Shown here: positions 26,615 through 31,541 of the stretch, piece after piece
Layout: each line of letters opens with the position of its first letter
Position numbering within the stretch: position 1 is the stretch's first letter
Origin: Anoxybacteroides voinovskiense
GTDB lineage: Bacteria > Bacillota > Bacilli > Bacillales > Anoxybacillaceae
Direction: 5' to 3'
DNA length: 34,902 nt
Assembly: GCF_014196205.1 (NCBI RefSeq)
Contig: NZ_JACIDE010000032.1
Coordinates: 1-34,902, forward strand
Program-made: the position numbers and the translations under genes
Notes under the pieces: model-generated
Databases searched by the model: none
What the model was told of the DNA's origin: nothing
The model's input: only the letters and a program-made list of their open reading frames with translations

Positions 26615-26658
26615 TCAAGTAAATTCCGATAATTTTTTAAAAAATAAATAGCCCTTCC

Positions 26659-26906
26659 CAGGCATGTTGATTAACCATTAAAAAACAGTTGAAATCGCTC
26701 TATTCCTAGCTTTTCTGCCGTAGTCGGCAAGCGGTTCGCTTGCCGACTGGGCATGCTGTACGCATGCCCTCCTCGAACAATGAACGCTTTGCGGGCAAAT
26801 GACATTTGCCCGCCGGCGTTCTTGTTCGAGGGAAGAGGCAGAAAAGCTTGTGTTCAGTCAAATGATTCTGTGTTTTTAGTAAAATAATGGATAATCAACA
26901 CTCGTG
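26659..26906. mobile_element. MITE copy 1 with 9-bp target-site duplication
   Basis: A 248-bp element flanked by AGCCCTTCC on both sides (26650-26658, 26907-26915). Its ends are imperfect inverted repeats of about 22 bp (CAGGCATGTTGATTAACC and, inverted, CACGAGTGTTGATTATCC). Inside, AGCTTTTCTGCC (26708-26719) pairs with GGCAGAAAAGCT (26837-26848). This closes three hairpins: 26722-26748 (12-bp stem, loop GTT), 26749-26769 (8-bp stem) and 26771-26831 (10 + 6 + 10 bp). It has no open reading frame for a transposase, so an unseen element must move it. It splits the terminator of the hydroxyacid dehydrogenase gene. Confidence 0.92.
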
Positions 26907-26928
26907 AGCCCTTCCTTGTCAAAGGGCT
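26907..26928 (-). terminator. Terminator hairpin of the hydroxyacid dehydrogenase gene, cut from its T tract
   Basis: AGCCCTT (26907-26913) pairs with AAGGGCT (26922-26928), overlapping the stop codon. On the minus strand it should be followed by ATTTATTTTTT, which is now found only beyond the MITE (26636-26649), next to the second copy of the duplicated arm (26650-26658). Confidence 0.75.
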
Positions 26929-27919
26929 ACGATCGTTTCTGTACTAGCCATTCTGTATTCACTAGTGCTTCTGGCGTTTCTCCTGTTAGCACGGCGAGAA
27001 TGTTTCGGCAGCTCCGTTCCATCATCTTTCTCCGCGTTTCGATACTGGCGCTCCCAATATGCGGAAGGGCGACGACGTTTTTGAGTGACAATAGCGGATG
27101 CGATGGGTCAATCGGCTCTTTCGTAAAGACATCTAGCCCCGCAGCGGCAATTTCCCCCGTCACAAGTGCTTCGTATAACGCCTCTTCATCGACGACAGCG
27201 CCCCTCGATGCATTAATAAAAATGGCTGATTTCTTCATCCACTGGAACGCCTGACGGTTGAACAAATGGCGCGTTTCTTCCGTAAGCGGCGTTAAACATA
27301 CGACAAAATCAGCCGCCTGCAACAATTCTTGAAACGTGCAATATACCGCACCTAATTGCCGCTCCGCCTCTTCCTTTCGCGTCCGGTTATGATATAAAAT
27401 GTTCATTTCAAACCCTTTCGCCCGTTTCGCAACCGCTTGTCCTATTTTTCCAAGACCAACAATGCCAATCGTTTTATGGTGTACGTCCGTACCCGCCAAT
27501 AAAAACGGGCTCCAACTTTTCCATTCACCTGCTTTGATATATTCTGCCGCTTCCACTAAACGCCGTGCCGTCGCTAATAATAGCGCAAACGTCAAATCCG
27601 CTGTCGTATCGTTCAGCACGTCTGGCGTATTACAAACTGCCACACCGTATTCCGTTGCTACCGGTACATCAATGTTATCAAACCCGACTGCCATGTTTGC
27701 CACCACTTTTAACTTCTCGCCTGCTTCCATCACTTCTCGATCAATACGGTCGGATAGCATCGTTAGTAGCGCGTCCGCTTTTTTCGCTTCGGCAAGCAAC
27801 ACGTCTCGCGCCACCGGCACATCGTCGTACGGCCACATCGCCACTTCTCCAATGACTCGTAACGGCGCAATCACTTCCTCTGGCAATTTTCGTGTAATAA
27901 AAATATACGGCTTGTCCAT
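26927..27919 (-). CDS. D-2-hydroxyacid dehydrogenase (glyoxylate/hydroxypyruvate reductase-like)
   Basis: A 330-residue NAD(P)-dependent enzyme. The Rossmann motif is TIGIVGLGKIGQAVAKRAKGF near residue 150. Catalytic residues fit the family: R in INASRGAVVDEEALYEAL, E in LDVFTKEP and H in ALPHIGSASIETR. Relatives reduce glyoxylate, hydroxypyruvate or 2-ketogluconate to D-hydroxyacids; the substrate is open. The ATG at 27919 (MDKPYIF) has AAGGAG seven bases upstream; 27925 is too close. It is downstream of yutH on the same strand, with a hairpin between. MITE copy 1 begins 20 bases past its stop codon. Confidence 0.88.
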   Translation of the reverse strand: MDKPYIFITRKLPEEVIAPLRVIGEVAMWPYDDVPVARDVLLAEAKKADALLTMLSDRIDREVMEAGEKLKVVANMAVGFDNIDVPVATEYGVAVCNTPDVLNDTTADLTFALLLATARRLVEAAEYIKAGEWKSWSPFLLAGTDVHHKTIGIVGLGKIGQAVAKRAKGFEMNILYHNRTRKEEAERQLGAVYCTFQELLQAADFVVCLTPLTEETRHLFNRQAFQWMKKSAIFINASRGAVVDEEALYEALVTGEIAAAGLDVFTKEPIDPSHPLLSLKNVVALPHIGSASIETRRKMMERSCRNILAVLTGETPEALVNTEWLVQKRS

Positions 27920-27955
27920 GTCCATTCTCCTTCCATTTTCGCCATCAACGCTCAA

Positions 27956-27976
27956 AAAGCGGCGATAGGCCGCTTT
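27956..27976 (-). terminator. Terminator hairpin after yutH
   Basis: AAAGCGGC (27956-27963) pairs with GCCGCTTT (27969-27976). On the minus strand TTGAG follows, a short T run, so some readthrough into the next gene is possible. Confidence 0.6.
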
Positions 27977-27980
27977 CCGT

Positions 27981-28970
27981 TCACTTCTTTAGCCAACGAA
28001 CGACCGGCAATGAAAAGCGCTTTGGTAAATCTAATTGCTCGTAAAACGAAGCTAAAAACGCCTCATACGCTTGTGACTGAGCGATGAGCGAGCGTAACAT
28101 CTGTGTATGGCTCTTTTTTTCTTGTTCGCTTTCCGCCAAATAATATCCTTCTACACACTCAAAATAAGGGATCGGGAACAATAACCGCGCATAAAGAAGT
28201 CGCCAAGAAAATGCCGACAGCGGCGTAATGCGCTCGTAATCACGAAAAAACAGGCGCAGTTGCTTTACTTCTCCTTGCATGTATAACGCACGTACCCACT
28301 CTGCTAAGTCGCGCGCACAATGGTCGTACACCCAGTCAAGCGGGAGCTTCACCTCTTTTCCTCCTGCCCATAATGCTTGCGGCAGCCGTTCATGGCAAAT
28401 CGTCGCTGCATCTACCGTATACGGCTGCTCATCTAATTCTGTATCGGAAACGTATTGAATCGCATTTTCCGCTAGTCCGGCATAATACGGAAACGACTCA
28501 ACAAACCAATCAGCAAATTCGTCTTCCCGTCGGTGCCATTTTTCTTTCCAAAATAACTCCATTTGATCTAACCGTTGCCCCCATAACTGTTTCCACTGTC
28601 CGATTCGATTACAATAAACAATATTGCTCGGAACATATCGACCGAGGGCATGAAGTTTTGCTAGTTCTTTTCCAAACGGTGTTGTTCTTGCGTACAGTTG
28701 CGTAGGAATACGAAACAAGGCGACATGCTTCCCGTTATGGGAGGTCACTAGCTTTCCGTTCGTTGTCGGAACGAGCGTCGCGACTGATAAATCTCCTTTT
28801 GCTACTAAATAGACGGCCATTTGATGTAGCTCGCTCATCTCCTTTTCCGTCCGATGGTGAACGGGGACAAGAAGAAACTTTTCCTTTTGACATAAAAACA
28901 CATCATACTTTCCTAGTTTCTCCGTCTTTTCTATTTTCCGTCCATATTGTTGTTCGACCCATTCAAACAT
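27981..28970 (-). CDS. yutH: YutH, spore coat-associated protein of the CotS/YutH kinase-like family
   Basis: A 329-residue protein that matches YutH in length, place and overall pattern. The kinase-like (APH/CotS) fold is suggested by the N-terminal strand region, the ELAKLHALGRYVPSN segment and the C-terminal LDWVYDHCARDLAEWVRALY. A full catalytic HxD and DxD pair is not evident, so it may be a pseudokinase. YutH is a putative endospore coat protein in B. subtilis. ATG at 28970 follows GGAGGGGGG. It is divergent from yutG. Confidence 0.82.
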   Translation of the reverse strand: MFEWVEQQYGRKIEKTEKLGKYDVFLCQKEKFLLVPVHHRTEKEMSELHQMAVYLVAKGDLSVATLVPTTNGKLVTSHNGKHVALFRIPTQLYARTTPFGKELAKLHALGRYVPSNIVYCNRIGQWKQLWGQRLDQMELFWKEKWHRREDEFADWFVESFPYYAGLAENAIQYVSDTELDEQPYTVDAATICHERLPQALWAGGKEVKLPLDWVYDHCARDLAEWVRALYMQGEVKQLRLFFRDYERITPLSAFSWRLLYARLLFPIPYFECVEGYYLAESEQEKKSHTQMLRSLIAQSQAYEAFLASFYEQLDLPKRFSLPVVRWLKK

Positions 28971-29045
28971 AAGCCCCCCTCCTTTCTATCCAAATATATG
29001 CGGAACAAATACCGAATACGAATAAATCACGAACGCGCAAAATAT

Positions 29046-29075
29046 TTGTGCAACATTCCAGTTTTTGATTATAAT
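29046..29075 (+). promoter_or_regulatory. Candidate promoter of yutG
   Basis: TTGTGC (29046-29051), an 18-base spacer and a perfect TATAAT (29070-29075). The leader of about 100 bases contains near-complementary AGAAAAAGCGT (29088-29098) and ACGCTTTTCT (29132-29141) that could fold. The rest of 28971-29183 is featureless. Confidence 0.5.
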
Positions 29076-29183
29076 AATTTCAACGTGTAGAAAAAGCGTT
29101 CGTCCATCGTTATCTATTCTTAAAAAAAGGCACGCTTTTCTCCATTTCCACATATACAATACAAAAAGAAATAGGTGAGCAAC

Positions 29184-29681
29184 ATGGAAAAATATACTAT
29201 GAACAACCTTGAACACGTTGCACGTCAGTGGTTAGAAGCAAGAGGAGTAAAAATCGAAGATATTGCTGAACTTGTTTATTATTTACAGTCTAAATATCAC
29301 CCGAATTTACAAATGGAAGAATGTATCGAAAACGTCAACCGCGTCATTTCAAAACGCGAAGTGCAAAATGCGATTTTGACCGGTATTCAACTCGATGTTC
29401 TTGCAGAGAAAGGGATGTTAGACGAGCCGCTACAGGCAATCATTCATCGTGATGAAGGGTTGTATGGGGTAGACGAAATTTTAGCGCTATCCATTGTCAA
29501 CGTGTATGGCTCTATTGGTTTCACAAATTATGGATATATCGATAAACAAAAACCAGGGATTTTGCAGTACTTAAATGATAAATCTACTGGAAAATGCAAC
29601 ACCTTCCTAGATGATATCGTCGGTGCGATTGCAGCAGCCGCCTCCAGCCGCCTAGCGCACCGCGCGGTCAATACAGAGTAA
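29184..29681 (+). CDS. yutG: YutG, phosphatidylglycerophosphatase A (PgpA)-like protein
   Basis: A 165-residue protein of the PgpA superfamily in its Bacillus YutG form. Family features are the N-terminal VARQWLEARGVKIEDIAELVYYLQ, then GIQLDVLAEKGMLDEPLQAIIHRDEGLYGVDEILALSIVNVYGSIGFTNYGYIDK and the acidic NTFLDDIVGAIAAAASSRLAHR tail with the D-D metal site. Compared with canonical PgpA it is soluble-looking, without strong membrane helices. The substrate is uncertain. ATG at 29184 has AGGTGAG six bases upstream; GTG at 29175 is inside that site. Confidence 0.85.
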   Translation: MEKYTMNNLEHVARQWLEARGVKIEDIAELVYYLQSKYHPNLQMEECIENVNRVISKREVQNAILTGIQLDVLAEKGMLDEPLQAIIHRDEGLYGVDEILALSIVNVYGSIGFTNYGYIDKQKPGILQYLNDKSTGKCNTFLDDIVGAIAAAASSRLAHRAVNTE

Positions 29682-29704
29682 AGGGCGTCGTTTTGACGCC
29701 CTTT
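29680..29704. terminator. Bidirectional terminator between yutG and yutF
   Basis: AAAGGGCGTC (29680-29689) pairs with GACGCCCTTT (29695-29704) around GTTTT. It overlaps the stop codons of both convergent genes. Confidence 0.88.
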
Positions 29705-30473
29705 ACATTCTTTCCATCCATTCTTTTAACGAATCAACTGTATACGTCGGCTGTTCGGCGTATGTTGCTAATAACTCTTTCGTCGTTACGCCTGTATGAA
29801 CAAGAAGTGTGTCCATACCGGCGTTCATTCCTGCTTTAATGTCCGTATCATAGTAATCGCCAATCATTAATGTTTTCTCACGCGGGACGCCAAGTACTTT
29901 TAACGCTTGTTCCATAATAATTTTTTCTGGTTTGCCGATAAAAATCGGTTGCACTTGCGTCGATACGGCAACAACAGACGTTAATGAACCATTCCCAGGT
30001 AACAATCCCCGCTCGGTTGGAATCGCAATGTCTCCATTCGTCGAAATGAACGTTGCCCCATTTCGGACAGCTAAGCATGCAATCGCTAGTTTTTCATATG
30101 TAATCGAGCGGTCAATGCCCATGACGACAAACTCCGCATCCTCTTTCGCAAACGTAAAACCTTTTTCTTTCAGCGCTTCGCGAATGCCATCTTCGCCAAT
30201 GACATACACCGAAGCATCTGGCTTTTGTTCAAAAATATAATTCGCCGTTGCTTGGCTTGTCGTAAATACTTGCTGTTCAGTCGCGGGAATGTCGAATGAC
30301 TGCAATTTTTCCGCTACTTGCGCTGGCGTCCGCGAGGAGTTATTTGTCACAAATAAATACGGAAGATGACGTCGATGCAACTCTTTCACAAACTCACGCG
30401 CTTCGGCAATACATTCCGTTCCGCGATACATCGTGCCGTCTAAATCAATTAAATACCCTTCATACGTTTTCAC
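29703..30473 (-). CDS. yutF: HAD-family phosphatase YutF (NagD-like)
   Basis: A 256-residue HAD hydrolase of the NagD/pNPPase group with a C2 cap. Motif I is GYLIDLDGTMYRG, with nucleophile and acid/base aspartates; motif II is LFVTNNSSRTPAQVAEKL; the motif III lysine is in FIGKPEKIIMEQAL; motif IV is LMIGDYYDTDIKAGMNAGMDTLLVHTGV. B. subtilis YutF dephosphorylates small metabolites such as nucleotide and sugar phosphates. GTG at 30473 has AAGGGAG eight bases upstream and gives the known N terminus MKTYEGYLIDLDG; GTG at 30482 overlaps that site. MITE copy 2 separates it from its promoter. Confidence 0.9.
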   Translation of the reverse strand: MKTYEGYLIDLDGTMYRGTECIAEAREFVKELHRRHLPYLFVTNNSSRTPAQVAEKLQSFDIPATEQQVFTTSQATANYIFEQKPDASVYVIGEDGIREALKEKGFTFAKEDAEFVVMGIDRSITYEKLAIACLAVRNGATFISTNGDIAIPTERGLLPGNGSLTSVVAVSTQVQPIFIGKPEKIIMEQALKVLGVPREKTLMIGDYYDTDIKAGMNAGMDTLLVHTGVTTKELLATYAEQPTYTVDSLKEWMERM

Positions 30474-30503
30474 ATGCAGCACTCCCTTATGTTCTGTACG
30501 TAA

Positions 30504-30752
30504 CAGGCGTGTTGATTAACCATTAAAAACCAGTTGACATCGCTCTATTCCTAGCTTTTCTGCCGTAGTCGGCAAGCGAACCGCTTGCCGACTGGGCATG
30601 CTGTACGCATGCCCTCCTCGAACAATGAACGCTTTGCGGGCAAATGACATTTGCCCGCCGGCGTTCTTGTTCGAGGGAAGAGGCAGAAAAGCTTGTGTTC
30701 AGTCAATTGATTCTGTGTTTTTTAGTAAAATAATGGATAATCAACACTCGTG
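30504..30752. mobile_element. MITE copy 2 with 9-bp target-site duplication
   Basis: A 249-bp element nearly identical to 26659-26906 and in the same orientation, flanked by TGTACGTAA on both sides (30495-30503, 30753-30761). It has the same terminal repeats and the same cloverleaf-like interior. Differences from copy 1 are few: one base in the left end, two near the left T/A run, one in CAATTGATT, one extra T, and the loop of the first hairpin, AAC here against GTT in copy 1. It lies between the yutF promoter (-10 at 30765-30770) and the yutF ribosome binding site. Confidence 0.92.
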
Positions 30753-30764
30753 TGTACGTAACAC

Positions 30765-30831: not shown

Positions 30832-31464
30832 TCATTCATCTGTTTCGTGAATTTCGTAGTGGCAAACGTCATCGCCTTTTGTCATGCACGCTTGCAAGGC
30901 GACTTTTGAGTTGAGAAGCTGTTGAAATAATTGCAGCTCACAAGAACAAATGGAACGGTATTTTTTTGCAATTTCCGAAATCGGACAATGGTGGGCGATG
31001 AAATGGTACACCCCTTGGTTGTCTTTTTTTAGCTGTGCCATATAGCCTTGTTCGTTTTGCAATTCGAACAGTTTTTGCATTTTTTCTTCGAGCGGTTTGT
31101 CTTGAAAATCGTGCGCATACCGTTCTTTCATTCTTGCGATTCGCGCTTGCAAAAGAAGAGCGACCATTTCTTTTCCCGCCAATGCCTCTAAATCGCTCAA
31201 CAACTCAACAGCCCATTGTTTGTAATGCTGGGGAAACTGTTCTTCTCCTTTTGCTGACAGCTCATACACGTTCGTCGGCCTTCCCATCGCTTGGCGAAAA
31301 AGCGTTGAACAAATAAGCCCGTCGCGTTCTAACGCCTGCAAATGACGGCGTACAGCCATTTCGCTTATATGGAGCCGTCTAGCTAATTCGCCAGCCGTTA
31401 GCCGTTTTTCCATCTTCAACAACTTCAATATTTGTTGCTTTGTGGAAGAGGATTGATAATCCAT
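30832..31464 (-). CDS. SufR-like winged-helix regulator with cysteine cluster
   Basis: A 210-residue DeoR/ArsR-like regulator. The N-terminal winged helix (about residues 7-70) contains LTAGELARRLHISEMAVRRHLQALERDGLI. The C-terminal part has five cysteines in the order C-x12-C-x-C-x17-C-x7-C (AHHCPISEIA, SICSCELQ, LQACMTKGDDVCHYEI), which resembles the Fe-S binding region of SufR-type regulators. It could sense Fe-S or redox state. Fe-S genes yutM, yutI and lipA are nearby in the window. The start at 31464 has GGAAGGTG upstream; ATG or GTG codons further up are unsupported. It has its own terminator. Confidence 0.82.
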   Translation of the reverse strand: MDYQSSSTKQQILKLLKMEKRLTAGELARRLHISEMAVRRHLQALERDGLICSTLFRQAMGRPTNVYELSAKGEEQFPQHYKQWAVELLSDLEALAGKEMVALLLQARIARMKERYAHDFQDKPLEEKMQKLFELQNEQGYMAQLKKDNQGVYHFIAHHCPISEIAKKYRSICSCELQLFQQLLNSKVALQACMTKGDDVCHYEIHETDE

Positions 31465-31541
31465 CTCATTCACCTTCCTCTTCCTCATTGTACGCTATTT
31501 CTTTCATTGATACAATTTTTACACAAAAAAGTTTAGAAAGT

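Follow-up and report, generated by a model that had tools for sequence, protein, structure and literature searches.

Miniature inverted-repeat transposable elements (MITEs) are usually viewed as gutted insertion sequences (ISs) whose interiors drift. Several bacterial families are known, and the Correia/NEMIS, ERIC and QMITE2 elements, in the accounts we drew on (PMC2229807, PMC10969869), are small, non-autonomous, flanked by duplications and very stably folded as transcripts, their folds being described family by family. A further interspersed short repeat of the Bacillales, bcr1 of the Bacillus cereus group, is listed with a structure analysis (PMC2267715), and the mobility of bcr elements has been tied to a TTTAT motif (PMC6542083). 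Here we analyzed a MITE present twice in a contig of 34,902 nucleotides from Anoxybacteroides voinovskiense (NZ_JACIDE010000032.1, assembly GCF_014196205.1; hereafter the window), whose interior is predicted to fold into a cloverleaf. In contrast to the Correia/NEMIS, ERIC and QMITE2 folds as those accounts present them, one cloverleaf here spans unrelated ends, and its pairing is kept through replacement of the stems. The element is set apart from bcr1, by the latter's published description alone, through varied 9-bp duplications instead of TTTAT. No earlier report of it was found in the open-licence PubMed Central literature, subscription journals lying outside the scope. The element is an IS5377-type MITE, a known kind; the surprise is the recurring cloverleaf inside it. 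Leaving mechanism aside, we judge it very probable that this classification is right and, jointly with it, that a shared cassette exists.

A MITE with the ends of an IS5377-like element

The original prediction, made from the letters of the window, described two near-identical elements in the same orientation, each bounded by an exact 9-bp target-site duplication, and this was confirmed. Copy 1 (248 bp, + strand, 26659-26906) lies between two occurrences of AGCCCTTCC (26650-26658 and 26907-26915, read from the sequence) and copy 2 (249 bp, + strand, 30504-30752), at a spacing of 3845, between two of TGTACGTAA (30495-30503 and 30753-30761). The copies are 97% identical over 219 nt, the 34 nt at their right ends being identical. 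Their terminal inverted repeats, expected to be imperfect and about 22 bp long, occupy 26659-26680 and 26885-26906 (+ strand) in copy 1, the left one being common to the IS5377-like element treated below, and measure 23 nt with 87% complementarity in copy 2. As had also been stated, the MITE encloses no transposase-sized open reading frame (ORF).

The element is not confined to these two copies, a doubt that the original prediction had itself raised. The source genome holds 32 near-full-span matches of at least 82% identity (one of them, on contig C21, a 216-bp form) in addition to fragments, and matches were found in 25 of 61 genomes (the source and 60 others), all 25 belonging to the window's family. 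Borders were inspected in 33 source-genome copies, namely 30 loci together with L050, L051 and L054; 31 of these are 242-250 bp long, the others being 216 and 135 bp. An exact 9-bp duplication flanks 28 of the 33, while two copies show 2 mismatches, one shows 3 and two show 5. The 28 exact duplications all differ in sequence, and positions 7-9 of the 26 that were tabulated lean to T-A-T. An origin by transposition is thus supported, the element being short and multi-copy, with inverted repeats, target-site duplications, the ends of an autonomous-type element and no transposase of its own. Two plasmid records carry the MITE, from Anoxybacillus amylolyticus and Geobacillus stearothermophilus. 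A viral or phage origin was considered and rejected, because no phage record matched the MITE and the pattern of the cloverleaf's closing stem was unmatched in viral contigs; a scan of homoserine dehydrogenase-bearing viral contigs was likewise empty, which is uninformative by itself.

The IS4-like, full-length relative with the same ends that had been suggested was found as a candidate parent. Besides the MITEs, a terminal-consensus search of the source genome returned one end pair at C15:69600-70849 (1250 bp) and nine single ends near contig ends, a picture to be expected of an IS in several copies that interrupts the assembly. Between the paired ends lies a DDE transposase of the IS4 type, split over two frames in this sole complete copy seen, with an N-terminal piece that scores 115.5 bits and a C-terminal piece that scores 90.5 bits against NCBIfam NF033592 (cut-off 115). 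The transposase of a plasmid relative, L103, reaches 224 bits with the same model and is 79% identical over 216 amino acids to the N-terminal piece from the source genome. L103 has the ends CAGGCGTGTTGATTA...GGATAATCAACACTCGTG, nearly identical to those of the MITE, within an exact 9-bp duplication, TAAACACAA; no duplication was seen around L104 or L070, making one in three for the IS itself. The plasmid relatives are annotated as IS5377.

Alignments between the MITE and the IS cover MITE positions 1-23 and 225-248, and the right end, when reversed, also aligns to the left end. The window repeats are therefore non-autonomous IS5377-type MITEs, the outermost ~23 bp of which correspond to those of an IS5377-like member of the IS4 family in the same genome. 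The two share terminal inverted repeats and, in one of three IS copies, the 9-bp duplication, and differ in that the IS is 1.25 kb long, encodes a transposase and shows no cloverleaf (covariance model R2, introduced below, was empty in L070, L103 and L104). Compared by sequence, the interior of the MITE, its cassette, has no convincing similarity to the IS. We infer that the transposase of the IS5377-like element would move the MITE in trans.

One cloverleaf cassette between different ends

The predicted cloverleaf core of copy 1 spans 139 nt (26709-26847, + strand), and the cassette of copy 2 lies at 30554-30692 (+ strand). In the fold of copy 1, all on the + strand, GCTTTTCTGCC (26709-26719) and GGCAGAAAAGC (26837-26847) form a closing stem, of 11 bp as RNA and 12 as DNA, around arm 1 (12 bp, 26722-26748), arm 2 (8 bp, 26749-26769) and arm 3 (28 pairs, 26770-26832), which is topped by a CAAAT..ATTTG apical hairpin. 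The closing stem, the three hairpins and the 12- and 8-bp arms of the original prediction were thereby recovered, the long arm alone being corrected from a 26-bp stem to 28 pairs with small interruptions. Both strands do fold alike: the + strand reaches -98.7 kcal/mol at z -11.9 and the - strand -98.2 kcal/mol at z -13.2, and not one of 200 shuffled sequences did as well on either strand. A shared plan, in which a closing stem is followed by a short arm, a still shorter one and a long one, was found in nine representatives (the window, seven of eight further loci and the + strand of L125), in which the cloverleaf is the minimum-energy structure at z -11.2 to -15.2. The opposite strand of L125, from genome G164, forms no cloverleaf (z -6.7), and R2 places the element on the + strand.

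Genome G010, whose identity as Thermolongibacillus altinsuensis is inferred, carries a stretch 74-76% identical to MITE positions 51-193 between entirely different ends, and so covariance models R1 and R2 were built for the cassette, R1 without copies ending in GGCTCTTT. Among 397 genomes of the order, 18 matched R1, and 7 of the 18 lie outside the window's family. In a draw from the class, R1 matched 4 of 398 genomes, all in that family, and R2 matched 7 of 398, all in that family or in the genus, g69, whose suf locus is discussed below. The pattern of GCTTTTCTGCC and GGCAGAAAAGC separated by 95 to 125 letters occurred in at least 99 stretches of the genome contigs, 80 loci being listed. Three of the matches listed that come from outside Bacillales (L192, L212 and L225) were rejected as cloverleaves, their best R2 score being 20.7 bits (E 0.0035).

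At least three kinds of ends were found to flank the 139-nt cassette. The first is the IS5377 type of the window, with its 9-bp duplications, which judging by eye is also present in G166, a genome of another family, and which in L095 and L097 appears, again by eye, to be reversed relative to the cassette. The second, GGCTCTTTTCTC...CAGCC, is borne by six full copies of 183-184 bp in G336, all six with exact 8-bp duplications, and by at least one copy in G164, from another family, where the 8-bp duplication agrees in 7 of 8 letters. The third, TATATAGAT, gave 23 to 46 matches in each of five genomes of Geobacillus, a count that takes in partial matches and those on the reverse strand, and its target is probably TA. 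Here the ends seen in Thermolongibacillus (TATATAGATTCAAG) and those seen in Geobacillus (TATATAGATGCAAC) were counted as a single kind, though they may be two; 23 loci with ends of the G010 type were collected. The cassette also occurs without recognised ends, at L121, beside an azoreductase-like gene (named by eye), and at the suf locus. An ISL3 parent was considered for the GGCTCTTT-ended MITEs, since the 8-bp duplications fit and we take this end motif to be linked to ISL3. They were not filed as ISL3, the transposase domain PF01610 being found in neither of the two genomes that carry the 8-bp type (G336 and G164).

Two side observations concern the TATATAGAT type. On the A. amylolyticus plasmid pDSM15939_2, one such element (L320:2951-3671) runs into the 3' end of a gene annotated as an HNH/ENDO VII nuclease. 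In L247, L255 and L280, the left end has GGGAG(G/A) with an ATG 8 nt on, which by eye resembles a ribosome site and start.

The closing-stem sequences differ completely between end types, as would be expected if each MITE had grown its own hairpins and there were no common cassette. Against such convergence, L119, L121 and L167 have in common the sequences of arm 1 (GGCAAG..CTTGCC) and arm 2 (GTCACGC..GCGTGAC), the order of the arms and a similar apical hairpin, and R1, made without any GGCTCTTT-ended copy, matches one in G336, of another family, at E 8e-15. We therefore regard convergence as highly improbable.

Recombination would offer a way for the cassette to pass between elements. L053 is a hybrid whose junction falls inside the long arm, with positions 2-125 of the IS5377 type (90%) on one side and 32 nt of the TATATAGAT type (100%) on the other. 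Elements of the two types also adjoin, within 10 bases at two places in G017 (G017:C1:1101621-1102058 and G017:C1:156933-157345) and, at one place in G021 (G021:C32:511-984), within 30 bases, these being raw counts. Because L053 joins the two types and both types adjoin, the cassette appears able to pass between MITEs.

The fold covaries across copies, to a degree that depends on the alignment. In alignment A3, biased towards the R1 structure because it was fitted to it, and with counts that ignore relatedness, 45 of 52 pairs changed on both sides, compared with 14.5 in shuffles (none of 500 as high), and 96.7% of cells pair, compared with 38-49% when the partners are slid. In the MAFFT-only alignment A1 two-sided changes affect 13 of 52 pairs, and among 15 suf orthologues 4 of 54. 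That one cloverleaf turns up between unrelated ends across related bacteria suggests some reason for which the fold as such is maintained. The earlier proposal that the structure is selected holds in so far as the architecture persists through replacement of its stems and between unrelated ends; selection and palindrome-correcting mutation are not separated by this.

A single-copy site was found in genus g69, where 16 of 21 genomes have one cassette match each, upstream of sufC. In L120, in which sufC was identified, the cassette ends 159 nt before this gene, and the other 15 matched genomes align with L120 across its sufC region. Two genomes, G249 and G175, have a shortened cassette that by eye lacks arm 3 (model score 29.5 bits in G175, none in G249), and G877 and G862 have no cassette before sufC; the fifth unmatched genome, G895, is 66% complete and stood outside this inspection. 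In L120, tandem repeats of ~52 bp form a long array (533-1206) upstream of the cloverleaf, and most orthologous loci gave matches to repeats like these. In the window, the gene adjoining copy 2 (30832-31488, - strand) resembles that of the iron-sulfur regulator SufR (TIGR02702, 133 bits, under the cut-off of 178.8), which next to the sufC-upstream cassettes of g69 is possibly coincidence.

Folded DNA, RNA or passive cargo

We propose, with a probability of roughly 0.35, that the cloverleaf is a portable DNA cassette, carried as cargo by several unrelated MITE families of the Bacillales, exchanged between them by recombination, folding as DNA on either strand and fixed once or more upstream of the suf operon for iron-sulfur assembly. 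That it acts as folded DNA is a tentative part of this proposal. When DNA is single-stranded, as on the lagging strand in replication, or strongly supercoiled, the cassette would extrude as a cloverleaf on either strand, which would shorten a stiff interior of ~200 bp and bring the terminal repeats next to each other for the transposase to act on. Alternatively, the folded cassette may make the MITE a better-tolerated insertion. A structural role of this sort would serve MITEs whatever the family of their transposase.

Probable traces of folding in DNA were found in the arms. In L026 (G000:C17:9369-9617) the arm-3 top has been turned round as a single block, one mismatch excepted. The arm-1 loop reads GGTTC in 15 of 30 copies, GAACC in 9 and otherwise in 6; within the window it is GGTTC in copy 1 and GAACC in copy 2, arm 1 being an exact reverse complement between the two. 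We take the inverted arm top and the two loop orientations as a sign that the hairpins formed in DNA, and with the scarcity of both G-T and A-C mismatches in the stems (counts below) they underlie our reading of the cassette as folded DNA. The arm top and loops also point to strand switching within hairpins, as expected if the cassette has no function, its hairpins being maintained by template switching and palindrome correction while it hitch-hikes on successful MITEs and spreads by recombination. The hybrid L053, the places where two MITE types lie side by side and, in the suf genus, the two genomes that lack arm 3 and the two that lack the cassette fit this too. However, palindrome correction would preserve hairpins without necessarily preserving how many arms there are, their order and relative sizes, or a CAAAT..ATTTG-like top through near-complete turnover of the stems; 16 of the 21 genomes of genus g69 retain the cassette at one site; and in the source genome the 32 near-full-span copies far outnumber those without a cloverleaf (two mini-copies seen and one of 135 bp). 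We thus consider a cassette without function rather unlikely.

An RNA role, in which read-through transcripts fold either way and are processed, stabilised or terminated, insulating neighbouring genes, with the suf copy acting as an upstream regulatory RNA, would likewise explain why both strands fold alike. It would also agree with the position of 27 of 30 copies outside ORFs (by a heuristic context table) and with the conserved single-copy site before sufC. In conserved RNAs, G-U pairs are usually more frequent than here: in counts uncorrected for relatedness, the stem cells of A3 comprise 1296 Watson-Crick, 32 G-T, 17 A-C and 29 other pairs, so that G-T makes up 2.4% of standard-paired cells, and those of A4 comprise 769, 15, 8 and 15, respectively, with one pair supplying 13 of the 15 G-T. 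G-T exceeds A-C by about two to one in both (32:17 and 15:8), a point for RNA, yet by 19:16 only when distinct column types are counted. The rarity of wobble pairs does not favour the RNA role that had been hinted at, nor does it exclude one. No Rfam 15 family reached its gathering score in 12 stretches (the window and 11 further loci), and four sub-gathering hits in the window (E 0.31 to 0.69) were taken as chance and rejected as evidence of a known RNA. The cassette is thus like the structured RNAs of Rfam 15 in its covarying, multi-arm structure and unlike them in its low wobble content and its lack of a family match. The suggested role as a terminator found no support, as the predicted-site list has no terminator-like site inside either copy. 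A promoter scan gave 8 promoter-like sites where 7.8 were expected, one of them a weak site in the right part of copy 2 (30707-30734, + strand). The 159 nt between the cassette and sufC in L120, within which a promoter may lie, would also count against an RNA role, which we find doubtful overall.

Returning to the portable DNA cassette, several observations weigh against it. Mini-copies of 103-109 bp have no cloverleaf, and two of these, L068 (G034) and L080 (G000), share a deletion junction; a third, L081 (G000), has a near-identical junction and an exact 9-bp duplication, which L068 and L080 do not have. L054, with 135 bp and no arms, nonetheless has an exact 9-bp duplication. The suggested role as a transposition signal is thereby limited: because cloverleaf-free copies exist, some with an exact duplication, the cassette is no essential signal and is not needed for transposition. 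Shortened forms that retain arm 1 (L055, L062 and L063) occur as well, as do partial copies fused to other sequence (L064-L067 and L069), which by eye look like later insertions of other elements. The excess of G-T over A-C leans weakly towards RNA of the + strand, and the fitting of A3 to R1 tempers the covariation. MITE positions 18-66 align with IS positions 739-787 at 70% identity (E 0.006), as strongly as the right-end match, an alignment that we take as chance. The suf-locus cassette has no recognised terminal repeats, and no parent was identified for the remaining end types, the TATATAGAT type having had no dedicated search.

Implications for MITEs and their hosts

To summarize, in these MITEs the architecture of the interior persists while the ends change. 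If the fold helps, it would provide a directly testable reason why some MITEs become more numerous than others, and the many natural copies would allow selection on the structure of DNA, rather than of RNA, to be tested in bacteria, with the suf-locus copies as a single-copy case open to knockout.

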